Assembly (NCBI GenBank): GCA_021029095.1 | Contig: JAJOHG010000097.1 | Coordinates: forward strand, 1-64,000 | Source: Phellopilus nigrolimitatus | Taxonomy: Eukaryota; Basidiomycota; Agaricomycetes; Hymenochaetales; Hymenochaetaceae | DNA length: 64,000 bases | Direction of reading: 5' to 3' | In this document: in pieces, positions 1 through 44,914 of the stretch | How the letters are laid out: every line of letters starts with the position of its first letter | How positions within the stretch are numbered: the first letter of the stretch is position 1 | Notes under the pieces: model-generated | What the model saw: only the letters and a program-made list of their open reading frames with translations | Databases searched by the model: none | What the model was told of the DNA's origin: nothing | Made by a program: the position numbers and the translations under genes

Positions 1-3000
1 AATTGTAATAAACTGTCTGGTGGCGTCCAGTTCAATTCTGGATTATCGAGGAACCAGCTAGCTTGATATTCAGCAACAGGCATGTGCCGTACTCTAGAGT
101 AGACTCACTAGCCAGATACCACGATAGCATCTCCCCAGTCAAGAGGTTTGGGTACAACTGACTAGAGTAATCATAAACAGGTGAATATAGACGAATAGAC
201 AAACGTACTTACTGGTGAGAAGTTGTATATGAACGGGATCTTCGACTGTGCCAAGTGTCCCATATCCGTGTTTTCGAGATGAAGCGTGTTACGCCTCCAG
301 CGGTTGATCTGACCGGAGGTGGCGGTCCAAAATATGTTATCGAATAGAACATAACTTCAAGCGAAAGAGAGTATGAGTTTTTTGTCCAATGAATACGTCT
401 GGCACGAAAATAAACGGACGTTGAAGCATTGAAGGAGGCCATTTCGACTGGTGGGCTAAGAAACGGGTGTGGAAACTGCGTCGTTCTGGAGAGAAGTTTA
501 ATTTAATTAGACATGTCGCGTTTTCTTTTTCTTTTTTCAAAGCATTACTGACTTCGTCCAAGGCATGGTAAAAGTCCGGAAATAAGGAATGTCTAACGAA
601 ATGTGTTTGTCAACAAATACCTGCCTCAGGGCCATGGAAAGTCCACTCACTGAGTGCTTCAGCGATGTGTACTCCAGCCATAGCAGATGGGCTTTCTAGA
701 AGAACATCGGCGTCTTTGCATGCCTCCCATGCGTCGACGAGGACTGAAAGCCATTCATGAGTTTATTCTATTTGAAGTACGAAACAAAAGCTTACGGTCA
801 TCTAACCATGAACGGAACTGACTTGAATGTCAGCATATTTAAGAAAATCAAAGAAAAGGAGAAACGTACATTGCCAATGCTCTCTTTAAAGAATTGGGGA
901 GAAAACATCTGATCCAGAGTCAGCAAGAATTCTCTCAGCGCCTGTCGATTGATTACCTTATGCTCTACACTCAGTTTCATCAACGCGCCTGGGTCTCCGC
1001 CGGCAGTGCGGTGCCTCACGCCCCATCCTTCAATCCACTCCTTGTACTCCGCATGCGTGACGATCGTCACACTGTGTCCATTGCGTATCAGCTCCTGCGC
1101 TAGCGCGATGTACGGCTGGACATCCCCGCGTGAGCCGATAGTAAGGCACACGTAGTGCGCCGCGTCCATGCGTGGCACGACGCTCTCGGGAAGGTTGATC
1201 ACCTTCGGGAGCAGCCGCAGCGCTTCACGCGGGAGGCGGCGAGTGGTCGCGCGCGCGACCGTGTACGAGAGCGGGGAGAGCACCTGTGTTGCCCCAAGCC
1301 CTGGGGACATCGGCATGGGCGTTTCTGGGGGAGATTCGACTAGAGGTCCGAAGGTGGACGACCCTTTCCGGCTGTGCGAAGGAGTGACCGACTGCGTGAG
1401 GCCGGGCATCGTTGACGAAATGCTCGAACTCAGAATACTAGGTGCCTGAACATGGTACTTCTCCACGGCGGCTGTGACGCGGCTGATAACCTCATCACGC
1501 AGTTCCTGCGTCGAAAAATCGAAAAACATAGACGGCTTTCCTTCTTTCAAGTCAAGAATCGCCCCGAACGTCCTTGGCAGAAAACGGAAATTAGGGCGCG
1601 CGCCGACGACTCTGTTTATCGGGAAGCGGTATTTCACGTCTGCAATGGAGAAGCCCTTTGTCCAAAAGCCGATATAATGCGTAGAGACGACGAAATAGCC
1701 TGTCGAAGCGATGCTTCGAGTTATGCGCGACCTCGCATCTGATTGGAAAAAATAATCAACGCTTCTCTTATTGTACCACAAAACAAAAAGGAAGCGCCTT
1801 ACACCAAATCTCGCTCTCGTAGCCAAGGGACAACGCGATTCGGATCGCTTCTTCTTTATCATCCTCGACTTTACGCGTCTCCCTGCGCTGCTCGACAAAG
1901 CTCAGCTCTCCAAAATCAACGATAACTTTCGGTGACGCAGCCATGCTCGCATTTCGCTCTCGCTCCTTTGCCTTTTCGACGAGTTCACCGAAGTCATCCC
2001 ACGCATGCAATTTTAGGACCCCACAAAGCTCCAGCGTCCTGCCCTCAATGTCGATCTCCTCATCCTCGAAGGATTGGGCGCTCTCACTCCCCTCATCATC
2101 TTTGCTTCCAGAACTCACAGATGAACTTCGCAGCCGCGTTGTGCGCACTTCTGAGGAAGACAGTTCGAGGGAAATAACGTTTGCGTACTTAAGGAATTTG
2201 CGAGTACTGAAAGATTTTACCCTGCTCAGGGGAATGCTTACTGTAAGAATAAACAGAACTTAGAAATAGATTTAAGAAATGTAGGGATAAATGTAACGCA
2301 CTTCGTACACCATTTGCCTCGTCCTCGGACGAGCGAGAAAGGTACACAGCGCGACTGTGGCTGTAAATGTAGACAGCGCCTAGTATCAAATTGAATAAAT
2401 CTAGCAATTTCATAAAAAGGGAGGCAAAAGAACCTTGTATCTCGCGTCTCCACTCCCGCGCAGACTCTTCAGTATCGAATTCACCGAATTTATCTCCAGG
2501 GAGTTCGGCCGACGTGCTAACAATCCTTAGCGCTCTCTTATTTTTTGGGTCTTCCGGGAGGATTTGCTTGATCGAAGACACTGACCGATAGTTAACAGAT
2601 GCAGGTAATAGAAAGGGCCGACTCACGAAGGACGGATCGAATAGGCCTTATGCGATCCTCCTGATTGCCAGATGGGAACGTTGTTAGCATGTCATGCGAA
2701 AGCTCAAGCCAGACGCGCCGTTTCCTGCGCAGACCAGGACGGTGAAGAGTCACGGGCCCGCGTTTGATTATTTGCCTTTCAGGGAGCAGATCGGGCCGCG
2801 TCGAGAGCAGCGACGCGTGAAATGAGAGCCGGTGCGTCGTGAGGTGGATCATACCGAGGATTGCAATCTCCTGAAAGTACGCACCGTCCATCTCAAAGAT
2901 GAGCCGCTCCTCGTCGAAGTCTGAGGTCGCGAGTGGCCCAAACTCCTCGACGAGCAGTCTAACGATCTCTTTGGGGGTGAGCTGCGAGACGCTCGTCGAT

Positions 3001-3590
3001 CGCTCGGGCTGGGTGCGCTCAGCTTCCTTAAGATCGAGCTCGGAAACACGAGCGGCAGTAAGTTCCTCATCCGTTTTATCTTCCGCCGGTAGTTCTTCCT
3101 TTTCTTTAAGTTCGGCTTCCTCTTCTTCGTCCATCTCTCCTGGCTCTGTAGTGGCAGGTGTATCTAGAACATTGCCACCCTTCAGCCACGAGCTCACCGA
3201 GATCTTCGCGAAGCGCTCCGAAGCAGCAAGGTCTGGCTGGCTCAAATCGCGTCCCACAAGGTCCGCAAAGCGACGCACGGACACAGCGTCGGCGTCGCGA
3301 GGCGCGCCCTTCATGTGCTGCGGTTCGATGCGCTCCTGGTCTTTTTCCTGTTCTTGCTTTTCTTCCTTGCCCTGTCCATCTCTCTGTTCGCGACCCTTCT
3401 CTTCGTCGTCGGAAATGACTTCACTGTATGCCACAGCATCGATGAATATGCGCGAGATACCGTTCTTGTCAAGCAACGAGGGCCGCTCGTCGAGCTCCGG
3501 GTCCGGGCCGCCGATGTCAGAGTCCTTCAGTCCAGAGTCGCTCGACATACCAGACTCACGCCGCGTCGCGACGGTTGATGCAGAGGCCAT
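1..3590 (-). CDS. ATG26: Sterol 3-beta-glucosyltransferase, 3' end cut by window edge
   Basis: It transfers glucose from UDP-glucose to the 3-hydroxyl of ergosterol-type sterols at membranes. I read twelve exons on the minus strand: 3590-2627, 2580-2434, 2379-2302, 2240-1805, 1731-870, 817-796 (a 22-nt microexon), 743-651, 592-553, 485-420, 354-213, 161-109 and 57 to beyond 1. The frame holds across every junction. The order is an acidic N-terminus, a first GRAM segment (around [20 protein letters not shown]), a PH-like stretch, a second GRAM segment ([13 protein letters not shown]), then the glycosyltransferase-28 N-domain with [17 protein letters not shown]. Further Atg26 hallmarks follow: [29 protein letters not shown] and the [10 protein letters not shown] stretch. 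The UDP-sugar-binding C-domain lies outside the window. The ATG at 3590 opens the longest frame. GRAM plus GT28 is diagnostic of the fungal Atg26/Ugt51 family; I cannot tell whether this protein has the pexophagy role known in some yeasts. Confidence 0.93.
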
Positions 3591-3985: not shown

Positions 3986-4807
3986 CAGTCAGCGATTTTT
4001 TCGTGTTTTTTTTTTTTCTGCTCGACCATTTTAGGACGGTGTCCAAATCAAGTCGACCCCCGATGCCCGAGATCCTCCTTTGCCGAAAATTTTCCTCATC
4101 TTACAATTCATATTGTACATGCTGACATCATGTGCAACGATTAGCCCGTCTCAATTCTGTGGAACTCGAGTTGTTAGTAAATCGGCAGAGCTCGGCGGAC
4201 TTTTCTACCGTTATATTGGTCCAAGCCAGATGGTCCCGGCGATTTGGCGATTTGATGAAATTTCCTTTTAGAGACGTTGTGCCTGGCAAATTTTACCAAC
4301 AGGACTAACACCTCAATCGGCGTTAGTCCTGTTGGTAACTTGTCGGACTTTGAAATTGATCCACTTTGGGATCTACGCAATCAACCCTGCATCCTGTTTT
4401 GGACTTCAAACCCATGGATCGTGTCTGTGAGAACATAGTTGAAACTCCGACCAAGTTTGTACATGTAGTACTACTAACAAGCATCTCAATTCTAATGCTG
4501 TTGTTACTGTTGCTAGCGAGTTCTGTGATGGCTGCCGAGCTTGCCGAACAATTTACCAACAAGTCGAGTTCCACAGAATTGAGATGGGCTATTAGTCGCT
4601 CTTGTATTTCTTCAAATAATATTGCTGGGTATTCCCCTATAAGAGTATAGCTGTTCTTATATACTTCAGTTTAAGCCGGCCCCGGGTGATTTGTGCGTAC
4701 CATTGAGGTACAGTACACTGATGACAAGACACGGCTGAGTTCACTACATAAGGAAATTCCGGGCATCGGGGGTCGAGCAGAAAAAAACACGAAAAATCGC
4801 TGACTGT
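3986..4807. mobile_element. Foldback element of about 820 bp with CAGTCAGCGA ends
   Basis: The left end CAGTCAGCGATTTTTTCGTG is matched in inverse orientation at the right end (4790-4807). The similarity continues inward over most of the element: the stretch near 4140-4200 is the approximate reverse complement of 4530-4595, and the segment with CCCGATGCCCG occurs near 4060 and, inverted, near 4762. The left arm carries about 30 extra bases. A smaller perfect hairpin (ACCAACAGGACTAAC and its complement) lies at 4284-4336. A TA follows the right end, while the left flank reads GA, so a TA duplication is only partly preserved. There is no transposase. It is best read as a non-autonomous Tc1/mariner-like foldback element. 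Confidence 0.75.
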
Positions 4808-4859
4808 AAGTAAGGGAAAAAGCAAAATGCTGATATGCGCATCCAGTAATTCCCAAATA

Positions 4860-5424
4860 CAGTCGAACCTCCCATATTGCATCTCTCTCATAGTGCATAA
4901 CCTCCCATAATGCATAGATCTGGGTTTCCACCAAGTCGGTAGATAGAAAATCCTTATATGATAATGCATAAAATTATATATGCATAATGCATAGCCGTTT
5001 CGAGTAAATTAAATACGGATATGCACTATGCGAGGTCGGCTGCAGCCGGGGTGCTACTTCACTTTTTCACCTATCAACATCATGACAGGGATTCCACATG
5101 TTCTCAAGGCTCGTCTTGTGGGCCTCTGACATGTTTCTAGTAAAGTTCGGCACCATTCTCAATCTCCCTTTCCAAATTGGGAAATACAAAACACTCCGGT
5201 GGAGAAATCCCCGATACAATGAAAGGCTGGAATGAGGACAAAGCTCGATATCACTTTTTTTTGGCTTATGATGTTCTGACAGTTGCATAATTACCATGAT
5301 AACTAATCCTCTAGTTTAATATTTATAATTACCTAATAGTGCCAAGTTTCTCGTATTGCATAACCTCCATATAAGCATAGACAACCCTTCCACCGACCTC
5401 TATGCAATATGGGAGGTTCGACCG
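4860..5424. mobile_element. Tc1/mariner (pogo/Fot1-type) miniature element, 565 bp
   Basis: The element begins CAGTCGAACCTCCC at 4860, and its right end at 5424 is the reverse complement with one mismatch over 23 bases. It is flanked by TA on both sides (4858-4859 and 5425-5426), the expected target duplication. CAGTCGAACCTC-type ends are characteristic of fungal pogo/Fot1 transposons. TGCATAATGCAT-rich subterminal repeats fill the arms. It contains no coding frame, so it would have to be moved by a transposase from elsewhere. A diverged relative lies at about 37,260-38,065, and an end fragment lies near 46,060-46,132. Confidence 0.88.
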
Positions 5425-16965: not shown

Positions 16966-19900
16966 ATGCCGTTCGGGTCGATTAAGCTCAATGACGGGAA
17001 CGAGGTACGCACGCGAACACGAACTTACCCATCATGTGAAGGTGCCGAGAAATATTTGTATGCGCGCAGATTCCCGCTATTGCATTTGGCACGGGGACCG
17101 AATTATTGCGGAAGGTACGTCGAACGCTCCCGTCATTTTCTGTGCGGGGGGCTTACACGAGTGCTTGATGGCATGCGTCGGTGGCAGGACGCGACGGCGT
17201 CCGTCGGAATGGCGCTCGAAAATGGCTTCACGCACATCGACACCGCACAGTGTGCGTATCCATGACTACCTTGACCAAAATATCTTCTTCTGCTGACTTC
17301 CGGCAGTTTACGAAAATGAGGAATTCGTCGGGGATGCGCTCCGGGAAGAGGCCCTGCCGCGCAGCGAGGTGTACATCACAACGAAGTATGGCGGTGGGAA
17401 GGTCAGCGAGGCGATCCAGGACAGTTTGCAGAAAGTATGTAATGCGCATTGAAAAGATACAAAGAAGGCTGATATACTATTTTCTCATGTAATTTGAAGC
17501 TCGGCCTGAAGCAGGTCGACCTGTATCTTTTCCACAGCCCGGCAGTAGTCGACGGGACGATCGAGAATACGTGGCACGGGTTGGAGAAGATTAAGGACTC
17601 CGGCTTGGCAAAGTACGCGGTGTATTGTCTTGACGGTGTTCACCTTGGTATTCAATATTGTATGCACTGTAGGAGTATCGGGGTCAGCAACTTCACTGTT
17701 CAGCAGCTGGAGGACCTAGCGAAGACAGCGCGTATCAAGCCCTCCGTAAACCAGGTTCGCCCTTCCTGTCTGATACCCGTTCTTCACGCTTCAGGTTATA
17801 TTTCCAATACCTCTACTCTTTGAACTAGGTCCGCTTCCATCCGTATAACTGGGTGGACAACAAGGATCTTGTCACGTATGCCTCAAAACAAGGCATCGTA
17901 CTTGAGGCGTACGGTTCGCTCTCGTCAGTTTCTCTTCTATATACTTTTCTAGAACTATTCTGATATTCATCCATTATCCATTTTTCAGCCCGATAACGAA
18001 GACCCCAGGCGGACCTGTCGACCAGGTCCTGAGCAATATCGGCGAGCGGATCGGTGCGACGCCCGCGCAAGTGATATTCTTGTGGGTGAAGAGAAAGGGC
18101 GTCGTGATCGTCACGTAATTATCTCTTTATTCTTTGCATTCTGGCTCTAAACAAAATCTGAATTCGACGGAATATTTGACGGTCGTTACTGGACAAAATA
18201 GTAGACTTAGACTTGAGATAGTGATGATCATCGATGATCATCGATGATCACTAGTGATCACTAGTGATCACTGGTGAAAACCAAGTCTAAGAGCTATTCA
18301 TCGATGATCACTAGTGATCACTAGTGATCGTCGATGAATGGGCACTTGGTTTTCATTGTTCACTAGTGATCACTAGTGATCATTAATGAATGGGGACTTG
18401 GGTTCATTGTTCATCAGTGATCATCAATGAACGTCGTGCTTCGACTTGAGTGTTCACCAGTCATCGATGAACAGTGAAATTCTATCTACTCAAGTCTAAT
18501 AAAAAGCCTCATAAATGAGCAATGATCGGTGAATGGACTTGACTGGTGTTCACCATTCACCAATGAGTGGTGAATGCCTCAAATCCGAGATCATCCGACA
18601 AAAAGACTATAATTTAATAATTAGTAGTAACACAGCCGCAAACTGTGATCGACGTTCTGCTTCGTCCTGTTACGCGATATCGGGCGGACACTCGCCATCG
18701 TTCCCACGCTCTCGTCCAACCCAGCTCCTGAGGTTTCAAAACAATCTCCCTGTCTCGTCTGCACAGTCCATCATGTCCAGCTTTGGAAGCAGACGCATAA
18801 CGCTGCGTGTGACTATTACAGTTGACTAGACGGCCCAAGTTTGTCCGACACCTCGTCGCTCGTGAGCTTGGACGAATACAAGAACCGCAATAGCAGCGGC
18901 TCTTCGCTGTCTCTTTCGTTCAGATCGGCGGTGCACACCGAGCCGGAGGATGATAGCGTCCCTGTCAGCTCGAGGGACACCGGGTTACTTGTTTTTTAAG
19001 AAAAACGAAGACAATTATGAACGGCGGGAGCTGGTCGACAGTGCAGGACTTCCACTCCTTGTCCGGATTGGAGTCTGAGTTTGACGCAAGCGCGTTCGAT
19101 GGTACGTCCTTGTTGTTCAAATCTCTGTTTCGTTTTTTGTTTTGTTTTGTTCTAATATTAAGAAAAAAGCGTGGTACTCCGCGGATCCTTCTGCAGTTTT
19201 CGAGCGGCTGAAGTTGTCCGAATCCTCTGAGTCCTTCGAGCGAAACACGCAATGGCTGCGCGACCAGACGTCGCGCGCTATCAACGGCATCATGACATCC
19301 GAGTTTGTCGTCTCCAATGGTTCCTCACTTGCGCTGAGCGGCGACGATCTGGATGCGCAGAGCCCATTCGACGGCGACCTTGCACTGCAGCAGGACAACG
19401 GCCGCTATTGCTACACATACTTACTACACGTACACCTCCGGGAGCTCATCGTTCGCTGCGTCTGCGTCCGCTGCTCACGACGACATCAGCATCGGCGAGC
19501 ACGGCAGCCACCGCATCGCGGACCCTTCGTGCCCGGCCAGTTGGGTTCACAAGGTGCTTCTGTCCCGTTGGGTGGTGTAGACCCGTCCTTACCTCAGAGC
19601 CAGCAACTCCTCAATGGCGCCGCCCCCCAACCCGCTCGCCGTAGGTGTGCACACGGGCAGCATGGGTGGTCTGCCCTTTACACCCTCGAACATGCTCCCT
19701 GGACGTCCCAGCCTCCCGGACGACCCCGTCATCCCTCATAACGGCTTCGCGACCCTCGAAGAGGGTGAGAAAGCGTTCACACAGCTCCTACGCAGGGCGG
19801 GCATCGACACGTCATGGAAATGGGACCAGACAATTCGTGCAACCATCACTGACCCGCTGTATAAGGCGCTCAACACTTTTTCGGAGAAGAAAAATTGTTG

Positions 19901-22900
19901 GCAGAAGGTGCGTATTCCAGTATTCTTTTGAATCTGAGGAAATACGTGCTGATAAGGAGACTAGGAAAAAGAGCGCGAAGAGCGCGAGGCTCGACTTGCG
20001 AAAATCAGGCCTGCGATTCGAAACATGCTCAAAGGCAACCCGAACGTCTTCCACTACTCAACTTTCCAAAGCGCAGACCGTTTGTTCGCACAGCACCCAA
20101 TCTGGCAGCAGGCCAAGATCGAGTCTGAACGCAAGATGATCTTCGAGGAGTACGTCGCGGAGCTCAAACAGCGCGAGGTGCAGGAGAGCCGTGCAGTGCG
20201 TGCGTGCAGCGTCGGCAAGGTTGTTGTGCTGTTCAAGGAGCTCAATGTCGACGTGCTCACACGGTGGTGCACCACATACTCTGCGCTGCGCGACTCGGAC
20301 GCGTGGGCGACGGATCCGGAGCTGCAACGCCTCCCGTCGCTCGACGTCCTCCTCGCGTTCGAGGACTACGCGCGTGTGCAGGAGCGCGAGTTCGAGGATC
20401 GCATGCGTCGGGAGACGGTCGAGAAAGCGCCGCGATCGGAAGGGGCAAGGGGCGTTCAAGTCACTGCTGCGCGAGCTCGTCGACGTGGGCCGTATCCGGG
20501 CGAAGAGCAAGTGGAAGGACGTCTACCCGGACTTCGGGGACGACGAGCAATATCTTGGTCTGCTCGGTATTCCGGGCTCGAACCCACTTGAACTCTTCTG
20601 GGACGTCGTTGATAGTTTCGATCAGAAACTTGACGCGAAGGTTACTGTCGTCGAGGAGGCGATCCGCAAGTTTGATCCCAACACGACGGAGGAAGAGTTC
20701 TTTGCCGCGGTTGCCGCCGCTCAAATGCATCACGAGGACTCGCAAAGCCTTGACAAAGACGACCTTAATGAGATCTATGACTTCGTAAGGCTTCGTAGTG
20801 CGTTTTGGGTTTCTATGATATTTACTCGCGTCTTTAGATGCACAGTGACCTTGTCAAGAGATTGGAGTCCGAAAGGCGGCGTGCGCAGCGGAAGCAACGA
20901 CACATGCAAGATGACTTCCGCTACGCGTTGAAGAAGCTTTCAGACCCAATAGACGTCAACGCATCCTACGACGATGCCATCCCTCTCATGGAAAACCTTC
21001 CTGAGTACAAAACACTCGAGGATGAAGGCCGACGTGCAGCTTTCGGTAAATTTATCAAGAGACAGAAGGTGATTAATACGCGTTATGTGTAGGAAAGCTG
21101 GAAGGTACTCATTCTCAAATCTCAATCTTTCAGGAACGCTTGCGCGAGCGCGAGTTATCAGAAGACGGCGGCTCAGGAACGGTCAACTTCGGCGGGCCAG
21201 GCGGCAGCGCGGGGTTCGCGGGCGGTGTGACGCCGGGCCTGCCGACGCCCCTGCCGTCAGCGGCTGCGGGAGGCGGAGGTGGGGACGTCGCAATGTGGGG
21301 CGTGTCGGTGAGCTTCGGGCAGGGGGAGCGCAAGGAGACGTCGGGGCTCATGAGCGCGTGAGAGGCGTCCTTTTTTCTTTTCTTTTCTTGCTTTCATTTT
21401 GCATGCCTATTATTCGGGGAGTCTTCGCTTGACTCGTCCCCGGGGATTGGAGTGTGAGGCTGAGAAGGTCCCCTCGCTGACTCATCTTGGCGCATTAGCT
21501 AGAGTTGTCCTCATCTCAGGCAACTGCCCGCCGCTCCGCAAGTCTGAGCTCGAGTACTACGCCATGCTCTCAAAAACAACTGTGCACCACTAACATGCAG
21601 CCGCCGACAATTAGTGCATCAGGCTCTGCGTCCACGCATGGTGTTTTCAAGAGCCGCAGCGGGCTCGCAGCGTCCCTCGGCGCCGCCATCGACTCGCTCT
21701 TGTGGGTATCCACAGCTATTGGTTTTCTACTCAATAGTCTTGAAAAAATAAGTTGTAATTAAATTAAAACAAAATGTAAGGTGACCCGCAGGTCACTCGC
21801 TATACCCACTCCGACCCGGACCTGCCATACCCGGACCCGCAGGTATACTGACCTGTGGGTCCGGGAGTCATACACGGGTTCGGGTCTGGATTTTGAAAAT
21901 CTCATACCCGTGCAAACGGGTCCGGGTCTACCCACGGATCGACCCGTGCTATGCCCTACCACCGACTGCAGCTTCGAAATGATGTGTCGTAAGGACATCG
22001 GGTCTGGTCGGAAAGGAGGTTATTTGTAATAAAACTGGTCTTTCAAAGTTGTTTTCATTGATCATAAATGAACAATGATTAAGATTTGACTTTTAAAAAT
22101 CATTACTCATTGATGATCATCAATGATCATCAATGATTAGTAATCACTAGTGATCACTACACCGCCAACTGAGTCAAATGTTGTTAAGATAGACAGAGGT
22201 ATACGCCTTAGAAGTGTCACAAATAGTGTCGAATAATGGACCGTGGAAATGTTGATATGGGATTTTTTGGAAAAACATAATTGAAATGTTTTAATTAAAT
22301 ACACGTATTATGCTTGGGACAAACTGGCAAAAAAACGGAAAATTTTCTAGTGAATTAAGATTTACATTGCTGTAATTGGAGGATATCATGTAAGGTTTTT
22401 TAATGCTACAACAAGTATTAATACAGGGCTTGTGTTGTGTTGTAATGCCGATGGGCAGCAAGATCGGTATTATAGTTTGTACTTATTTATGCAAGACTTG
22501 CCCAGATGTTGGTTGAGGATTAGCCGATAAATGTTTTTTAGACATTTTCGGAGACATCCGAGTGACGTTCAAACAACTTCAACCAAAAAGTAATCTACAC
22601 ATATAGGAAAACACGTAGTAATTACACAAGGCAGAGGTGCAATGCAATGCTACAAGTCATGTACATGATTTCGGCCATAAAAATACAGATAACCCGTTAC
22701 TTCGTCATCAACAAGACTTATGTAATCTTCAAAATCATTGATTTTTCGTTCACACGAACTTGAACTTGTGCTGTCATGTCCGAACTTGTCCTAAACGTCA
22801 CCATCAAGCTAGGCTACGCAAATGCAAAAGTGTATCGTATGCCGCTTTTTTCTTCTGCCTTTCCATCTTACGGCGGCAAGACATAAATATATAAATGCGA

Positions 22901-25233
22901 GAACGAGGCGTAGCTGTGACAGGGCTGTTATCACTCGTACCACTCCGACAAGGAGGATCGCCCGCCGTGCGAGGGTGCGAGCATCACATGAAGCTGTTCA
23001 GGTCTGTCTCTTTCGTCGACTGACCCGGACACAATATTCTCATGGCCACCATACTGGACGGTGCGGCAGTCATGGATGCTGCACTCCTTCTCATCACTGG
23101 GAATGGGTCGTGCCCGCAGCCCCAGATTTCTGAGCATCCCAGATCATAAAGCCCCAAAACATCATCATTCTGCAAAACAAGGTTTGACTTGATCAAGGAG
23201 ACACAGGCTCTTGGGCACCAGAAGAGTATCGCTGCATTCATAAAAGGTGTGTTCGCGCATCAACCGAGAAAGAAAAACGCTTGCTACAGAGCTGAGAGGG
23301 TTCTGCTCGCATACAGGCTCCGTGGCGGAGGTGTCGCCCCATCATTCCGATCTCCACGCAGCTAAAATACAACATTGATGCAGTGAACGAGTACATCGTG
23401 AAGCGGATCCCGATCCCAGTGTGGATTGCATGTCGTCCCTGTGGTTGAGTGTTGTCGCCGCGATTGAATGTTGTGCCACGGTTGATTGTCATCCGCTCGT
23501 TCGACGTGAACAAGCCCAGCGCGGAGGTCAGCGAGCTGAAGAATGGTGTTGCGGGCAGCTCGATTCTTGCAGGTGTGCTCACGTTTGGCATGCATGTCGA
23601 GATCTGCCCGGACATCGCCACGAAGGACGCGCAAGGCCACAATCGCTGCCACCCGATCTTCAGCTGCACCGTCACCTTGCTCGTGAAGAACAATCAGGTG
23701 CAGTTAACGGTGTCCGGCGGGCTCATCGGCGTGGGCACGATGATCAACCCGACGCTGTGCCGCGCGGATAGGCTCATCGGGCAGGTGCTCGGCTCGTTGG
23801 GCAAGCTGCTCTAGATCTACACCGGTGTGTCGCTCCATCCTTCTCACGTTTGCTTCAGTGCGCTTACGCCCTTCCTTCTGCGTGCACAGAACTCGAGGTC
23901 AGTCTATTCCCCTTACAGTGCTTGTTGGATATCCAGACAGAGGACAAGAAGACAGCAAAGGTGACGAAGCTCGTGAAGAACGAGCTGCTGCTGATCAACA
24001 TCGGCTCGACGTCGACTGGCGGGTGCGTGCTCAGCGTGAAGGTAAACCTCAAGGCGTTGAGCATCCTCCACCACCTGCACCCGACATCCGGCTCTGCGCT
24101 GGCATTGCCCACACATCGGATGCAGCCTATACAGCATCTGCATCACAGCGAGCTAGGGTGGGAGGCGGGGGCACCAGTGCTCCTGTATTTTTTTTATTGC
24201 TAGCTTAATTGATGTTTTATATATATAATTGAATAATGACCAAGATTAAAATGCAAGAGCCCAATAGCATGACTAAAGACGTCTAAATAATCTTGGTGAC
24301 TATGGTCATTAGGTGACAAGTTGTTACGTCTTCAGGTCATTCGTAAAAATGTTTTTTAAACATTTGTCGGCTATATTGCATGGGCATCTGCGGCAGCGGC
24401 TGACCGACAGTTGCCGAAAGCTTCGCAAAACATCCCCGAGGATTGTCATTAAGGGACACATCTGCATGTTGCATTCAGATGTCCTCGGAAAGGTTGCTCC
24501 GAGGCCATTTGGTCACATATGTCAAAGACTCCTTGGGAAATGGTATAACAACATGGTCTATTTAAAAACGGTCAAACAATTGGCGTAATGGTCTTCAAAA
24601 AACACTTCTCTAAGAGTCAAATTACGTTCTTATCATGACATTCAAACAGCGCAGCGTCAATCTTTATTAAACATTTTGTTCAAATTGCGGTGTAGTGATC
24701 AATGAAAACATAACTTTTTTCATTGATGATCATTGATGACTGGTGAATTCCAAGTCTCCGTTCATTGATATTCATTGATGATCACTAGTGATCACTAGTG
24801 ATCATCGATGAATAGCTCTAGGACTTGGTTTTCACCAGTGATCACTAGTGATCATCGATGATCATCGATGATCATCGATGAATTTCCCAAGTCAAAGTCC
24901 AAAATCCCCAAGTCCAATGTTTTTTGTCCGATAGCGACCGTCATAGGAATATGATTGTGACAGGACGACAACGAAGAAAGAGCGCCTTGAGGAGTACCTC
25001 GCCGTGGCCGACCTTCGTACGTCTGCTTCTCCGGTCACATATTATGTGCCTTTTTAATTTTGGGCTGCATAGCTGAGCTCACAGATGCGGAAATCGCTGA
25101 CATCGAAGAGGCTGGCGCAAAGGGCCCTCCTTCATCCTTTTCCGACTTTGTGCGGAAGAAAACACCTTTTCGCGTGATTGCGGTAACTGTTGCAGCTACT
25201 TTGTTTTACGGTGTTCGATGGCTGTTTGCTTGA
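16966..25233 (+). CDS. Aldo-keto reductase AKR2, intron 8 filled by a 6.8-kb transposon
   Basis: This is a tandem paralogue of AKR1 with identical exon phases. The exons are 16966-17004, 17070-17114, 17188-17251, 17307-17434, 17500-17612, 17673-17754, 17829-17923, 17989-18114, 24964-25016 and 25073-25233. Joined, they give 301 residues without a stop. Catalytic motifs are kept: [23 protein letters not shown] and [10 protein letters not shown]. The C-terminal anchor is also kept ([20 protein letters not shown]). Intron 8, 64 nt in AKR1, is 6,849 nt here because transposon copy 1 inserted in it with a 7-bp duplication. The donor (GTAATT) and acceptor (GTGACAG) survive. Fungi rarely splice introns this long, so the gene may be inactive or give a truncated protein lacking its last ~70 residues and its anchor; this is inference. 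Confidence 0.85.
18215..18575. repeat. Subterminal palindromic repeats, left end of transposon copy 1
   Basis: There are many overlapping copies of ATCATCGATGAT, TCACTAGTGATCACTAGTGA and TTCACCATTCACC-type units, several of them self-complementary, separated by recurring CAAGTC/GACTTG words. They are shared with the corresponding end of copy 2 (43,380-43,740). Arrays of this type near transposon ends usually serve as transposase-binding sites; that role is inferred here. Confidence 0.75.
19017..19523 (+). pseudogene. 5' fragment of the ZZ-zinc-finger gene in copy 1
   Basis: It matches the start of the gene carried by copy 2 (42,940 down to about 42,430) almost base for base, including the first intron. 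Exon 1 is 19017-19101, beginning with [20 protein letters not shown], and exon 2 starts at 19170 ([14 protein letters not shown]). A duplication of about 13 bp near 19,411-19,424 shifts the frame. The similarity stops abruptly at about 19,523, after [10 protein letters not shown], where PRP40-like sequence begins. Upstream, 18,840-18,990 also matches copy 2 and could encode an earlier exon. Confidence 0.75.
19524..21165 (+). pseudogene. Captured FF-domain fragment of a PRP40-like splicing factor
   Basis: The sequence encodes two or more FF-type domains. One segment runs from [20 protein letters not shown] to [15 protein letters not shown]. Another runs from [20 protein letters not shown] through [21 protein letters not shown] third region contains [20 protein letters not shown], and a late part has [18 protein letters not shown]. 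Such proteins (Prp40, or the related TCERG1) link U1 snRNP to RNA polymerase II. Introns are retained (for example 19,910-19,964 and one near 20,786-20,837), so the piece came from genomic DNA. The N-terminal WW domains are missing. Small frameshifts near 19,645 and 20,450 break the frame. Confidence 0.75.
21166..21361 (+). pseudogene. C-terminus of the Zn2Cys6 regulator fused to the FF fragment
   Basis: The frame leaving the FF fragment runs straight into [35 protein letters not shown] and the ending SGLMSA, stopping at 21359-21361. The intact regulator at 57,090-60,190 ends with the same series ([38 protein letters not shown] stop), with a short internal deletion here. It is therefore a captured piece in the same reading frame and with the same stop codon as its donor, making a chimeric reading frame. 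The junction lies near 21,165-21,185. Confidence 0.75.
21490..21593 (+). pseudogene. Fragment of ribosomal protein eL30
   Basis: About 33 codons read [34 protein letters not shown]. This is the central conserved block of 60S protein eL30 (typically [20 protein letters not shown]). There is no start codon, and the similarity ends after HHY. The following 110 bases ([20 protein letters not shown]) are coding-like but I do not recognise them; they may be a further captured piece. Confidence 0.8.
21777..21957. mobile_element. Small foldback insert with GACCCG repeats
   Basis: This segment of about 180 bp is absent from the equivalent place in transposon copy 2, where the flanking sequence (CGACTGCAG... 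side) continues. It is built of CGGACCCGCAGG/CCTGTGGGTCCGG-type inverted words and begins and ends with related GTGACCCGCAGG and CACGGGTC-like sequence. It is probably a miniature element; no certain target duplication was found. Confidence 0.45.
22035..22158. repeat. Subterminal repeats of copy 1, right side, first part
   Basis: ATGATCATCAATGATCATC and ATCACTAGTGATCAC units match 39,240-39,400 of copy 2 in inverse orientation. They are separated from the rest of this zone (24,693-24,890) by the nested element. Confidence 0.7.
22160..24692. mobile_element. Nested TA-flanked element of 2,533 bp in copy 1
   Basis: The ends CACCGCCAACTGAGTCAAAT (left) and CACCGCAATTTGAACAAAAT (right, reverse complement) are similar inverted repeats. 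TA lies on both sides (22158-22159 and 24693-24694). The empty site is seen in copy 2, where GTGATCACTAGTGATCAATG is continuous, proving the insertion and its TA duplication. It carries an eIF2-gamma pseudogene and no recognisable transposase. Confidence 0.75.
22990..24175 (+). pseudogene. eIF2-gamma pseudogene inside the nested element
   Basis: The fragment corresponds to translation initiation factor 2 subunit gamma from the GTPase G3 region onward. [22 protein letters not shown] has a stop replacing Cys of the DCPGHD motif. NIIILQNKV is followed by a frameshift, then [56 protein letters not shown] and [21 protein letters not shown] stop replaces the residue before IYTELE, and an intron (about 23,826-23,889) is retained there, so it is a DNA-level copy and not a retrocopy. 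Several introns and the GTP-binding P-loop region are degraded or missing. Confidence 0.85.
24693..24890. repeat. Subterminal repeats of copy 1, right side, second part
   Basis: Tandem ATCACTAGTGATCACTAGTG and GATCATCGATGATCATCGAT units are interleaved with CCAAGTC words. They match 39,085-39,240 of copy 2. Confidence 0.7.
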
Positions 25234-39015: not shown

Positions 39016-39084
39016 TAACTATGACGGTCGCTATCGGACAAAAAACATTGGACTTGGGGATTTTGGACTTTGACTTGGGAAATT

Positions 39085-39400
39085 CATCAATGATCATCGA
39101 TGATCATCGATGATCACTAGTGATCACTGGTGAAAACCAAGTCCAAGAGCTATTCATCGATGATCACTAGTGATCACTAGTGATCATCGATGAATATCAA
39201 TGAACGGAGACTTGGAATTCACCAGTCATCAATGATCATCAATGAAAAAAGTTATGTTTTCATTGATCACTAGTGATCACTAGTGATTACTAATCATTGA
39301 TGATCATTGATGATCATCAGTGAGTAATGATTTTTAAAAGTCAAATCTTAATCATTGTTCATTTATGATCAATGAAAACGACTTTGAAAGACCAGTTTTA
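39085..39400. repeat. Subterminal palindromic repeats, left end of copy 2
   Basis: Overlapping ATCATCGATGATCATCGATG, ATCACTAGTGATCAC and ATCATCAATGATCATC units are separated by CAAGTC words. They correspond to the right end of copy 1. Confidence 0.72.
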
Positions 39401-39730
39401 TTACAAATAACCTCTTTTCCGACCAGACCCGATGTCCTTACGACACATCATTTCGAAGCTGCAGTCGGTGGCACGTCATAGGGTAGATCCCGGAGCCACA
39501 CTCTTGAACAATCCATTGTCTAGTTTTCTTTCCCAAACAAACATAAATCAGAGTGCCCCTCAACACGTTTCTATGTCTTGTTTACGCTTTTTTGCACTCT
39601 GAGCCAACCCATGAATTTTCCAAGAAGATTGAAATGCATCCGCTACATATACAACAAGCACTGGAAGTACAGGAAGGCAAAATACATGTGATGCTAATTG
39701 GCAATAAAATGTTAGCGAACAGAAGTGACA

Positions 39731-42700
39731 TTACGAGTAATACACGGGATACTTCAGCACCGGCAGACTCCCTTCCAGATTATCCAGCTCTGCGACGATC
39801 CTGCGAAGCAACGAACGGTCAGATAAAACATGACACAGACACATTTATTCTCACCTGAAAACCTGCATATCCACCTAAAATAAAATAAGCCGAGTTGTAA
39901 TAATAAGAGACACAAAAACTTAAAGCACAAGAGAACAAAGTATTCACCGGCGCCTTAAAAACATAGAAGAAATGGGTGCGATCATGCGCGTGCGGATTCA
40001 AGTTTTCACACACATCGCAGAGATCCTTCGCGCAGTACACACAACGGAACCACACGCCTTTGATGCGGTCCATGCAGTGATCACACAGCGCCACGTTGTG
40101 GTAGAGCGTTGTGACATAAGCTGGAACAGCAGATGAAACTGTGTCAGAAAAAGAGGACTGGTTTTCCGGACACGGAAGGGCGTACGGACCTTTGGGATGA
40201 GCGGAGTTGAGTCGACCTGCTGGACCTGCGGGCTGCCTGTACCTAACATCCGCGAACAGACGTTAGTTTACGAAACACGATATGTGAAGGAAAGCGATGG
40301 GGACGTACAGGATTGGCAGAATGGCAAATTGCGACTCAATTGGACGATCCATGGGCCGCGGTAGCTTAAAGAAAATATGCATTGGGTCGTGAAGAAGATA
40401 CAATCGCTGCTTGCAGGTGGCGCACTGAACAGAGCAGTACGAAGAGCGAACAACAACTCCAGTAAGCCCCGCATCATTTTGCAAATATAGGGAAAACGCA
40501 CCAAGCTATACGACTGGGTCTTCGTCGCAGGGCACGTCGCACATTGGAACCGCACGCTGACGTTGCTCTGGTTGCACCCCTTGCACGCGATGCGGAGGTC
40601 GAGCGTCTTGTAATCACAGCAGCTGCCGCGTGCATGTTTCGAGCCGGACCCGATGATGGTGACTGCATCGGCCTCCCGGCGAGTCCGCGCGCACGCGTCT
40701 GCTGGGTGTGAATTTCGTCGGACCAGGTGCAGTTGTAATGGAAACGAGAGTAGAAAGGGATGCAAGAGTATGCAGGTTGATAATAAACATTGGAAACGCC
40801 GCGATCGAAGAGGTCGACGTGTGCGCGTACGACTCAAACTTAGAATTCTCCTGAGTTTCAAATTGAGTACTGGTATTGACACGGGAGAGGCCCTATGTCC
40901 GAGCTAAGGACATCTGCGAGCGCGTATGTTCAAGGTTGGTCGGGGGCCATGAAATCAGAGTGCCCTCCTTCGCGACTGAAGGACACGAAGTAAGCCGATT
41001 TTGCACGTTCTGGATGGAGGTGAGCACACACTTGCATGTGAGATTTCGTCACCTTTCAGCTGTGAGTCATCCCACCCGCTCTCTTCTCCCTCGTACCCAC
41101 TCTGTTCCTCTTCTTCATCAGCGAAAATAATGTTTTGGTACATTTCTGAAATCCGCTGGCTCGCCGCGTCAAGAGTTGCTGGAGGTAAAATCCAGTCATC
41201 AACAGTATCCTCAGGCTGCGTAGCAGCTCGATCAATGCAGGTTTGACGGTCAAGCTCAGGTGTTGTCAACCTTTTGTCCTCAGCTATTTCAGATGAGGAC
41301 GCCGTTTTCCTGTGATACGTGTTGACTTGAGCAAGTTTCTTCAATTCCGCCGTCGTTGGAGCTATCAAAAAAACTCGATACGACATTTTGCGCACAGGAC
41401 TCAAGTAGCTCTTTCTTGCTAAATGGTCTGAGGCTTATGAAAATGGACACTCTAAGACAGTGCCTCTCGAGCAGCAGTATTCAGCCGATTATCAGTCACC
41501 CTCGGTTATGGGGCCGCGCCTACTAGATGGATTTCCCTCTCCTGAAGATAATGCGAAGCCATGGCACGGACCTGTAGCATGCGCGGCAGAGTACAACGTT
41601 CTTGCACGATGCGCATTTGTAGCGCGGCGCCGTCAGCGAGGTGTTGCAGATCGTACACTCGCTTATATTGTCTTGCTCTGCACCATCCAGACTACTCAGC
41701 ATCCGCTAATATCGAGATCAAAAAGAGACGAGTCACGCACCGACGTCTTTCCACCCCGATGCGCTCCAAAGCTTCTCGAGGTACGCATGGCGGAAGTGGC
41801 CTTTCTGCCTCGGCGCCGCGCGCCGCAGCTGGCTCAGCGTGCGCTGATCCTCCGGCGAGGCGGAGGTCGGCTCGTCGGGCGCTGCGCCGCCCGCCAGCGC
41901 ATGCAGCACGCCGGCCGTCTCAAAGCAGCCCGGGCACAGCTCGTACCCGCCGTCGCCCGCGACCGTCGACGACGACGACGCGGACGACGCGGAGGGCGCG
42001 GAGGGTGCGGAGGGGAGCGTGGGCAGCGGGCGCGGGCGCGCGGGGAACGGCTTACCATTCGTGTGTGCGCGCGGCGGGTACGCGAGCGGGTCGAACATTG
42101 ACACGTCGACGACGTCGGCGCGCGCCTTGCCCTTTCCGTCCGCATAACCGTTCGCATGGCCGTTCGCCCCGGCGCTCGCACGCGGGCGCGGCGTGCGCTC
42201 CCCGCACGTCGAGCACACGTAGCGGAATGCGTCGAGCAAAACGCCGCACGCGGAGCAGTCCGTGCACGCGGGCGGCACGAGCTGTCGGACCTCGGGTGGG
42301 GTGTCTGCGGTGCGTGGAAGAGGGTCGGAGGTCGACGAGGACGCGGATTGGCGATTCGACGACGAGGAGGGGGAGGGATAGTCGGACGAGCCAGACTTGG
42401 ACTGGGTCTTCTGAGACGCAAGCCAGTGTAGTTTCGGATCGCGCCAGTCCGCGACGCGGTGGCTGCCGTGCTCGCCGATGCTGACGTCGTCGTGAGCAGC
42501 TGACGCGGACGCGGCAGACGACGAGCTCCCGGAGGTGTACGTGTAATAGTAACGGCCATTGTCCTGCTGGAGTGCGAGGTCGCCGTCAAACGGGCTCTGC
42601 GCATCCAGATTGTCGCCGCTCAGCGCAAGTGAGGAACCATTGGAGACGACAAACTCGGATGTCATGATGCCGTTGATAGCGCGCGACGTCTGGTCGCGCA

Positions 42701-42940
42701 GCCATTGCGTGTTTCGCTCGAAGGACTCGGAGGATTCGGACAACTTCAGCCGCTCGAAATCTGCAGAAGGATCCGCGGAGTACCACGCTTTTTTCTTAAT
42801 ATTAGAACAAAACAAAACAAAAAACGAAACAGAGATTTGAACAACAAGGACGTACCATCGAACGCGCTTGCGTCAAACTCAGACTCCAATCCGGACAAGG
42901 AGTGGAAATCCTGCACTGTCGACCAGCTCCCGCCGTTCAT
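39731..42940 (-). CDS. ZZ-type zinc-finger protein carried by transposon copy 2
   Basis: Exons traced with confidence are 42940-42856 ([20 protein letters not shown]), 42787-41741 and 41677-41572; the middle exons are less certain. Last come the ZZ exon near 40,094-39,950 and two short exons ending in LPVLKYPVYYS with the stop at 39733-39731. At least three Cys-rich modules are visible: CTICNTSLTAPRYKCASCKN with LCRACY; CKGCNQSNVSVRFQCATC; and CDHCMDRIKGVWFRCVYCAK with LCDVCENLN and HDRTHFFYVFKAP. An acidic linker (YEGEESGWDDSQLKG) lies between the first and second. ZZ fingers bind zinc and mediate protein contacts. Family members are ordinary host genes in basidiomycetes, so this looks like captured cargo. 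I see no disabling change in the exons traced. Confidence 0.65.
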
Positions 42941-43379
42941 GACTGTCTTCGTTTTTCTTAAAAAACAAGTAACCCGGTGTCCCTCGAGCTGACAGGGACG
43001 CTATCATCCTCCGGCTCGGTGTGCACCGCCGATCCGAACGAAAGAGACAGCGAAGAGCCGCTGCTATTGCGGTTCTTGTATTCGTCCAAGCTCACGAGCG
43101 ACGAGGTGTCGGACAAACTTAGGCTGTCGTAGTCGACGCATGCGCAGCGTTAAGCGCCTGCTTCCAAAGCTGCGTCCGGACATGATGGACTGTGCAGACG
43201 AGACGGGGAGATTGTCTCGAAACCTCAGGAGCTGGGTTGGACGAGAGCGTGGGAACGAGGGCGAGTGTCCGCCCGATATCGCGTAACAGGACGAAGCAGA
43301 ACGTCGATCACAGTTTGCGGCTGTGTTACTACTAATTATTAAATTATAGTCTTTTTGTCGGATGATCTCGGATTTGAGG

Positions 43380-43740
43380 CATTCACCACTCATCGGTGAA
43401 TGGTGAACGCCAGTCAAGTCCATTCACCGATCATTGCTCATTTATGAGGCTTTTTATTAGACTTGAATAGATAGAATTTCACTGTTCATCGATGACTGGT
43501 GAACGCTCAAGTCGAAACACAATGTTCATTGATGATCACTGATGAACAATGAACCCAAGTCCCCATTCATTAATGATCACTAGTGATCACTAGTGAACGA
43601 TGAAACCCAAGTGCCCATTCATCGACGATCACTAGTGATCACTAGTGATCATCGATGAATAGCTCTTAGACTTGGTTTTCACCAGTGATCACTAGTGATC
43701 ACTAGTGATCATCGATGATCATCGATGATCATCACCATCT
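43380..43740. repeat. Subterminal palindromic repeats, right end of copy 2
   Basis: TCACTAGTGATCACTAGTG and GATCATCGATGATCATCGAT units, plus TTCACCATTCACC-like words, match 18,215-18,575 of copy 1 in inverse orientation. Confidence 0.72.
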
Positions 43741-44914
43741 CAAGTCTAAGTCCACTATTTTGTCCAGTAACGACCGTCAAATGTAACGGATAATCCTGTG
43801 TACCGTGTTCCTCATTGCCAATGTCGTGGCCACAGAGTGTGAGCTTCTTCAATGCATAATCCTCACAGGGCTGAAAAAGCCAGCGTAGATATTGCTCAGA
43901 CGATTCGTCCGCTTTCCCTGCAAAGTCGATTTCTGTGAGTTTCGAGCATGGTGGCAGTTTGCTGAGGAAGTCAGGAATGGTAGATGGAGAAGCCTCGGGG
44001 CACGTCCAGTCGGTGAGTTTCAAACGCCTAAGTGACCGCATCCGCGCAACAGTCTCGCAAAGGTCGGGCAGCTGTCGAGACAATCCATATGCGCTTCCGA
44101 CGTTCAATTGCTTCAAGTCCTGAAAATCCGCTAGGCTGCGAATGGCATCGATAACATGTGGGCCAAATTCATCTGCGTTGAAGGGCGCCCAAATTACAAG
44201 GGTTGTGACATTCGGGGCTACGTGCGGCAGCGCAGCGAGGAGAGCAAACATCTCGTCAGATCTGTCTTCATCTTTTTCGTGGGATTCGAAGTTTGGCATT
44301 GCGAACTGGATATGCCGAGTCCAGGGACCAAAGAGAGGGTTGCGGAATAGAGAGTGCAAGCCGAGGCTCCCAATAGTTTGCACTCCTCGTCGCATGACGC
44401 GCTGCACTGAATTGGTCCACGATCGGTGCACAAGACACATGCTCCTGAGGGTCTCGAGATCATTGTGCAGGAAATTCACATGTGTCGAATACGTGAAACG
44501 ATTTCCACCTTTCCGGTTGAATAAAAATCTATTGAGATCTACGGGTAGATCTGCGGTAATCGTGTCCACGACAAGATCCACGATGGTTAATGGAATAGGT
44601 GTGGTCAGTGTGGCAGTCAGAGCCGATTGCGGCCAGGAGCGCTCGTGGGCGGTCTGACGTCTGCTGTCCGCGATTTGGCACAGAACGTCTACGCCGCTCG
44701 TAAATGATATCTCGTCGATTTTGAATGCGGGATCCCGGTGTAGTCGAAGTAAATCGTCGAAGACGGACAGAGAGAGTTGAGGGCGTTCCTGCCCACCAAA
44801 CAATAAGGATGCCAACAAAGCATCTGATTCAGATTTGAATCGGACTCGGGCTTGCGAGTCTGTATCGACGAAATAAGGGCCAGGTGTGGATCCAGATGTG
44901 GTTGTCAGTGTCAT

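Follow-up and report, generated by a model that had tools for sequence, protein, structure and literature searches.

Gene collecting by transposons with terminal inverted repeats (TIRs) is regarded as a plant speciality, and the locus described here raises the question whether a fungal family of such transposons does the same. The window, i.e. the whole stretch of 64,000 nucleotides of DNA from the wood-decay fungus Phellopilus nigrolimitatus that was analysed, includes a TIR transposon at 18175-24945, which is a complete member of a larger family (Table 1). The first-pass annotation of this DNA had let the element start at 18176 and had assigned it a 7-bp target duplication, GGAATAT. The element begins at 18175, and the duplication is only 6 bp long (GGAATA), the seventh base being coincidental. 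The family ends, TTTGACGGTCG...CGACCGTCATA or, in general form, T(T/A)TGACGGTC, are both crowded with palindromic subterminal repeats. In the left terminal region TGATCA occurs ten times and TGATCATCGATGA five times, both strands counted, and neither motif is present in the 3430-bp interior of this copy. The subterminal palindromes (10 and 9 copies of TGATCA at the two ends) are placed as putative transposase binding sites would be. The second complete copy in the window adjoins a member of a multi-copy LRR/F-box-like gene family, which was read from frames and self-matches at 28194-56500; a similar piece occurs in the gene model P0011.

Table 1. Parts of the transposon copy at 18175-24945, its target duplications and the second family copy (window positions; identities refer to the contigs named).
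Feature	Position	Strand	Remarks
Left target duplication	18169..18174		GGAATA, 6 bp
Left terminal inverted repeat	18175..18185	+	TTTGACGGTCG, 11 bp
Left terminal region	18175..18600		subterminal palindromic repeats
Nbr1-type (PB1 + ZZ) gene piece	18740..19523	+	from about residue 91 onward, without PB1; common to other copies
FF-domain gene piece	19525..21174	+	92% to C246, 91% to C389, 95% to C598
Tail of GC-rich multi-copy sequence	21186..21401	+	recurs elsewhere in the window
Ribosomal protein eL30 gene piece	21416..21591	+	91% to C603:424709-424884
Stretch similar to C168	21557..21780	+	92% to C168:78235-78468
Right terminal region, first part	21949..22159	+	family-wide; broken by the nested element
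Nested second-family element	22160..24692	+	CACCGC...GCGGTG ends; TA duplication 22158-22159 and 24693-24694
Broken eIF2-gamma gene piece	22781..24121	+	within the nested element; extent from matches of other loci
Right terminal region, second part	24693..24945	+	subterminal palindromes, TGATCA nine times
Right terminal inverted repeat	24935..24945	-	TATGACGGTCG (read inward), 11 bp
Right target duplication	24946..24951		GGAATA
Second complete family copy	39020..43781	-	duplication GTTACA; different 851-bp insert

The assembly holding the window (56.4 Mb, 635 contigs) was searched with the TIR pattern, allowing up to two mismatches, which returned 103 sites compared to 10 for a reversed-pattern control. 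This confirmed that the TIR family is real and far beyond chance. At least 41 complete copies were obtained as facing TIR pairs 1.6-11 kb apart when pairing was done among the 100 sites listed, and single ends were found in addition on C24, C471 and C607. The separate searches with the left (491 bp) and right (258 bp) end scored 40 of 90 and 40 of 87 candidates, respectively. We read 24 complete copies fully and ten more at their ends, i.e. 34 of the 41 pairs, and an exact 6-bp duplication was present in 31 of these 34 copies (22 of the fully read and nine of the end-read ones). Hence, the ends flank duplications in other copies too, which the first-pass annotation had proposed to check. The exceptions are C110 and C57, which have none, and C268 with five of six bases. 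Two pairs of copies, L021/L022 and L024/L027, have their duplication in common and are probably allele pairs.

By our reading, the window copy interrupts an aldo-keto reductase gene, which was named by eye, within its final intron. A tandem paralogue of this gene at 15.9-16.6 kb contains a single GGATTA at the equivalent place and represents an empty site. Moreover, when the flanks were joined without the element, they matched C33:48236-48916 without a break (91%, 682 of 704 bases), and a second, weaker flank match lies approximately 1.9 kb away. Because the joined flanks match there uninterrupted and the second match is spaced like the paralogue in the window, C33 is a probable allele-like locus without the insertion. 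We interpret further uninterrupted flank matches of 77-82% identity, e.g. on C401 and C633, as paralogues.

The copies have a common core of 4.5 kb, in which 0.56 kb of terminal sequence precede an Nbr1-type gene, present from about residue 91 to the last, and a terminal region follows; the copies L016, L019 and L020 are each 99% identical to L014 in this core. Relatives of the protein outside the species have a PB1 domain and ZZ fingers. The Nbr1-type gene of the core is truncated at its 5' end, with the ZZ fingers kept and the PB1 domain missing. The ZZ piece recognised in the first-pass annotation is therefore present, but it is not the 5' end of the gene, as had been assumed, since it starts at about residue 91 of the Nbr1-type protein, after PB1. 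When the PB1 region was used as query, the elements matched only its residues 77/80-104. The host PB1 region was found at C603:899240-899609 and C181:30040-30409, and weaker PB1-bearing pieces are located on C33, C112 and C268 (69-71%). C603 and C181 are the donor-like loci of the Nbr1-type gene with the PB1 part included. Judged by core matches, part of the gene is kept in all 24 fully read copies; the 1.6-kb copy L042 keeps only about its last 0.25 kb.

Different blocks of captured DNA sit inside these otherwise common elements. The FF-domain gene, which we take to be PRP40-like, is found together with the GC-rich tail and eL30 in the window copy and in L013, the two being 98% alike. Pieces of a DEAD-box helicase lie in antisense orientation in L017 and L026, SWIRM, ZZ and Myb domains are found in L040 with identical junctions in L021 and, by eye, a like piece in L015, and a P21-Rho-binding domain marks a piece of a Rho-binding kinase in the single-ended C24 copy L041. 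Furthermore, an 851-bp block is present in four copies, among them the second window copy. The block of L010 gave only a sub-threshold match to DUF4211, and no Pfam match was obtained for the block of L011/L012.

Donor-like loci could be located for several of these pieces. The FF piece matches C246 (92%, query positions 2-1651) and C389 (91%, query positions 143-1651), and the eL30 piece matches C603:424709-424884 as given in Table 1. The helicase piece matches C101 (95%) and C152 (94%) over all 2360 bp, which are the sole matches besides the two elements, and these full-length helicase loci are the probable donor. Another proposed check, whether the internal fragments match host loci elsewhere, hence had a positive outcome for FF, eL30, helicase and Nbr1. 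The donor matches are collinear across non-coding stretches, therefore the capture was from DNA, as had been concluded before from retained introns. The FF domain and the eL30 piece were likewise recovered as first described. A different result was obtained for the supposed C-terminus of a Zn2Cys6 regulator: a motif scan of the window found no such motif, although introns could split it, and the piece that had received this name (21186..21401) is the tail of the GC-rich multi-copy sequence. The pieces of FF and eL30 were probably not taken gene by gene. The FF/tail/eL30 chimera occurs twice on C598 as an inverted pair, which is 95% identical to the window copy and includes extra upstream sequence of the FF gene. 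Because this chimera has no family ends, the block was probably assembled elsewhere and taken once as one piece. The inverted pair itself (C598:62895-69670, L033/L034) is 99.97% alike over 3324 bp. Altogether, the proposal of Pack-type capture is supported by the donor-like loci, by the structure of the ends and the target duplications seen in many copies, and by the different inserts in a common core.

The nested element and its eIF2-gamma piece, both part of the initial description, were confirmed. L013 corresponds to the window element without the nested insertion and keeps GTGATCACTAGTGATCA where the latter reads ...TA-CACCGC...GCGGTG-TA. In all ten other copies of this second family that were read at their ends, TA is found on both sides. 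These ten copies and the empty site in L013 rule out TGATCA, which had been considered as the duplication. The nested element is a separate family with TA duplication, for which 83 matched stretches were reported, with copies on C157, C613, C401, C555 and others, and many of its copies carry an eIF2-gamma piece. The nested element has evidently moved recently, because its full length is matched with 96-100% identity at four more places. A likely host eIF2-gamma gene is located on C192 and C146, with matches of 82% and 81% and no ends.

Other gene-carrying sequences were noticed during the analysis. Related ends of the form TTTGACGGTCTGTACTGGACAAAA are present at L039 (C616), at L038 (C290) and on C524. 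The C616 locus contains pieces of two genes in antisense orientation, importin beta and a cation ATPase. The C290 and C524 loci contain a nested stretch of about 7 kb with an Argonaute (Piwi) piece. Many matches of 71-85% to this Argonaute-bearing stretch on C27, C390, C90, C4, C368, C13 and others point to an expanded or transposon-carried Argonaute family. At L043 (C13:310400-316420), a piece of PP2A B56 and, as judged by eye, a P450-like gene come after a degenerate TTTGACGGTCTGTACTGGACAAAA-type end. In addition, two short elements with inverted repeats lie in L024 (C407) at its positions 4139-4655 and 4799-5375, and they are absent from its probable allele L027.

The enzyme that could mobilise the main family was looked for in several ways, and the autonomous copy with a transposase that the first-pass annotation had suggested was not found. 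No transposase domain was detected among 20 peptides picked by eye from the copies and related loci, a selection that covers parts of the interiors, and no autonomous partner was recognised among those TIR sites that were read. The part-read surroundings of the single or variant ends on C24, C57, C290 and C616 and of the weaker relatives on C13 and C46 showed gene pieces or ordinary genes and no transposase; the TIR site at C57:9445 may be a chance match. The 11-kb copy on C223, a candidate for the autonomous form, turned out to be the core with a Gypsy retrotransposon inside. The hAT domain PF05699 gave seven matches in the genome, one of them nearly full-length with four stops and six partial, bearing in mind that introns can split matches.

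Among the superfamilies to which the family had been proposed to be compared, hAT agrees neither in the PF05699 matches nor in the duplication, which is 8 bp (5-7 in named subgroups) compared to 6 bp here; hAT6 agrees on duplication length alone. Mutator-like elements (MULEs) have an 8-11-bp duplication and usually long TIRs. Judged by these lengths, the 6-bp duplication and the 11-bp TIR do not fit them. EnSpm/CACTA elements, with CAC..GTG ends and a 2-3-bp duplication, also differ from the main family. The integrase-core domain PF24764, which is only our guess to cover IS3EU, was found at two loci in the genome, L045 (C616:105240-107300) and L046 (C489). The gene on C616 is open over long exons and begins approximately 110 bp outside a related transposon end. 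This made it look promising as the enzyme of the family, but no such end was found upstream of the second PF24764 gene, where 0.5 kb were read, and the closeness on C616 is therefore probably a coincidence. For KDZ (Kyakuja, Dileera, Zisupton), the accessible part of the source gives a duplication of 7-8 bp (PMC12730594), which, judged by length, disagrees with the 6 bp here. Duplications of 6 bp are also stated for IS3EU/GingerRoot (with TA..TA termini), hAT6 and Polinton in the portions available to us of two papers (PMC10045372, PMC12730594). With IS3EU/GingerRoot the duplication agrees and the termini do not, as all 34 copies that were read, 24 of them fully and ten at the ends, have TA at the right end and TT at the left. 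Because of the TT left end and the lack of a detected transposase, the family is not filed under IS3EU.

We consider it quite probable that the copies belong to a cut-and-paste, apparently non-autonomous Pack-like family, the interiors of which were replaced by gap repair. According to this proposal, the 11-bp TIR together with the subterminal palindromes would be recognised by a transposase acting in trans, and integration with a 6-bp staggered cut by this presumed enzyme would produce the duplications that were observed. An ancestor would have taken up most of the Nbr1 gene as genomic DNA, to which the common piece and its start point testify, and in later lineages the interior would have been replaced or extended with DNA of other genes, as is seen in the copies read. 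The most likely route would be gap repair within the element, either ectopic or homologous, e.g. upon excision or breakage, in which the template would switch to host genes, other copies or preformed chimeras like that on C598. The passenger genes would then be more like debris than selected cargo.

This proposal draws on the distribution of divergence along the copies. Compared to L016, six of eight copies diverge by 1-4% at the ends and mostly by 4-17% in the interiors. The step from low to high divergence lies near 300-450 in L028, 750 in the two window copies, 1050 in L011 and 1500 in L017 and L027. Of the other two copies, L040 is divergent over its whole length, and L021 was compared over 1161 bp without a step being seen. 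We read the stepped divergence as repeated interior replacement by gap repair, which we infer from such patterns and not from donor junctions; the left junction of the FF block, where clear microhomology was not seen, speaks against it. The young-looking ends could be homogenised or constrained instead. In a tree of 24 left ends, where 10 of 20 inner branches are open and L042 sits on a long branch, the FF pair forms a clade (98/91). The group of the helicase pair (91/91) includes the insert-free L016 (100/97 with L026), the 851-bp group needs two changes and the SWIRM group three. Hence, either ends and inserts have recombined or the left-end tree is weak.

An explanation that we regard as rather unlikely is capture by hybrid elements, a route that has been proposed for Pack-CACTA in the accessible part of one paper (PMC13317346). 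Here, aberrant excision would remove complementary inner ends from two copies lying side by side in tandem, and the sequence that separated them would form the new interior. Where the helicase, FF and 851-bp blocks are present, they take the place of core sequence (395 bp, approximately 2700 bp and 611 bp, respectively), as would be expected from complementary deletions. However, the 1066-bp block of L010 on C110 (element positions 2512-3577), which has no inverted ends, is inserted at one point in an otherwise complete core. It is flanked by the 6-bp direct repeat ATCTTA (by eye), which has the duplication length of the family, in a single case and in a copy that itself has no outer duplication. 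Furthermore, the C598 chimera appears to have been taken as a finished block, and hybrid elements leave the stepwise divergence of the interiors unexplained, which is seen even in the insert-free L027.

To our knowledge, PB1/ZZ proteins have no transposase function, and we find it improbable that the Nbr1-type gene is a selected gene of the transposon, either cargo or helper, with the inserts being secondary damage. Such a role would be consistent with the retention of part of the gene in all fully read copies. Between lineages, the differences in the Nbr1 exon are mostly at third codon positions, e.g. 12, 2 and 46 differences at the three codon positions between the second window copy and L016. 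In the dN/dS analysis, which covered 11 of the 24 copies and gave values for pairs with at least 25 differences, the listed pairs without L010 and C223 have 0.07-0.22. The third-position bias is found even between two pairs of copies with a shared frame-shifting deletion (7, 2, 23 and 12, 8, 25). However, this 1-base frame-shifting deletion is common to 12 of 19 readable copies (20 were looked at), two close copy pairs show no third-position bias (1, 6, 0 and 0, 2, 2), and dN/dS is 0.42-0.57 in the pairs with L010 and 0.24-0.97 in those with C223 (L010 apart). We read the Nbr1 pattern as host-type divergence that may have been imported by recombination or gap repair and was followed by drift without evident constraint, whereas the low dN/dS values could also mean that the Nbr1 cargo was once under selection. 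Helitrons have neither TIRs nor target duplications. The explanation that we are dealing with a Helitron or a segmental duplication and not with a TIR transposon is hardly tenable, since gene pieces are indeed carried by Helitrons of the basidiomycete Pleurotus according to the part available of one report (PMC4289320), but inverted ends, the 6-bp duplications in nearly all copies checked, which rule out a Helitron for the family, and empty sites are found here.

Returning to gap repair, a more general picture can be put forward tentatively, as a possibility that we hold to be somewhat less than even. The fixed termini would act as a cassette in a basidiomycete TIR family that belongs to a superfamily with 6-bp duplications, and gap repair would renew the interior again and again from host genes. 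The captured Nbr1, an autophagy-receptor gene, would provide long homology to a host locus, from which it would be refreshed, and unrelated genes would be patched in. Several other gene-carrying families of the genome suggest that such capture might be general there.

The captured pieces also have consequences for genome annotation. The best protein matches to the common interior were gene models of Phellopilus nigrolimitatus. When seven models were compared with the 24 copies, P0004, P0006, P0008 and P0018 contained stretches 97-100% identical to element copies, P0003 was up to 91% identical to one, and for P0019 and P0021 no source copy was identified among the 24. Because public models hold stretches 97-100% identical to element interiors, captured pieces inflate the gene catalogue (at least four public models), and they can mimic the expansion of gene families. 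Successive captures, identifiable donors, a probable empty allele and near-identical copies in a genome of 56 Mb would make the capture mechanism accessible to stepwise dissection.

Compared to known systems, the maize Ac/Ds elements have a different TIR and a duplication of 8 bp. The family resembles them in the 11-bp TIRs, the subterminal repeats and the heterogeneous non-autonomous copies, as far as the available part of the source describes them (PMC3260210). With IS3EU/GingerRoot it shares the 6-bp duplications, the presence in fungi and the right end beginning with TAT, but its left end begins with TTT and no transposase is linked to it; for the IS3EU/GingerRoot elements of Pucciniales, TIRs of more than 30 bp beginning with TAYGG are given in the accessible sections (PMC10045372, PMC12730594), and IS3EU has been reported in Ganoderma, according to the part of that paper at hand (PMC8955403). 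Fungal hAT elements with histone H3 are similar in that a host gene was amplified between TIRs (Pyrenophora, PMC3538342; Mycosphaerellaceae, PMC6710886). As described in the accessible portions of these two papers, they occur in ascomycetes, carry one H3 gene acquired by transcript capture and have the hAT transposase in a large element, and a gene-carrying Tc1/mariner case is also from ascomycetes. In contrast, the sequences captured by the present family are genomic DNA from several genes, and a transposase was not seen in it. The closest likeness in kind is with Pack-MULE and Pack-CACTA of plants, which, in the sections available to us, are non-autonomous TIR elements that multiply DNA of unrelated host genes (PMC8903248, PMC13317346). 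The family has the corresponding features, i.e. TIRs with a fixed-length duplication in many copies and host pieces with donors. It differs from the plant elements by its fungal host, the 11-bp TIR, the 6-bp duplication and the palindromic subterminal repeats, and also by one common captured core with later replacements. No report of a basidiomycete TIR family with captured DNA of several genes was found in the accessible parts of the open-licence literature. The Pack-type kind of element is known, and it is apparently new for a TIR family of basidiomycetes.
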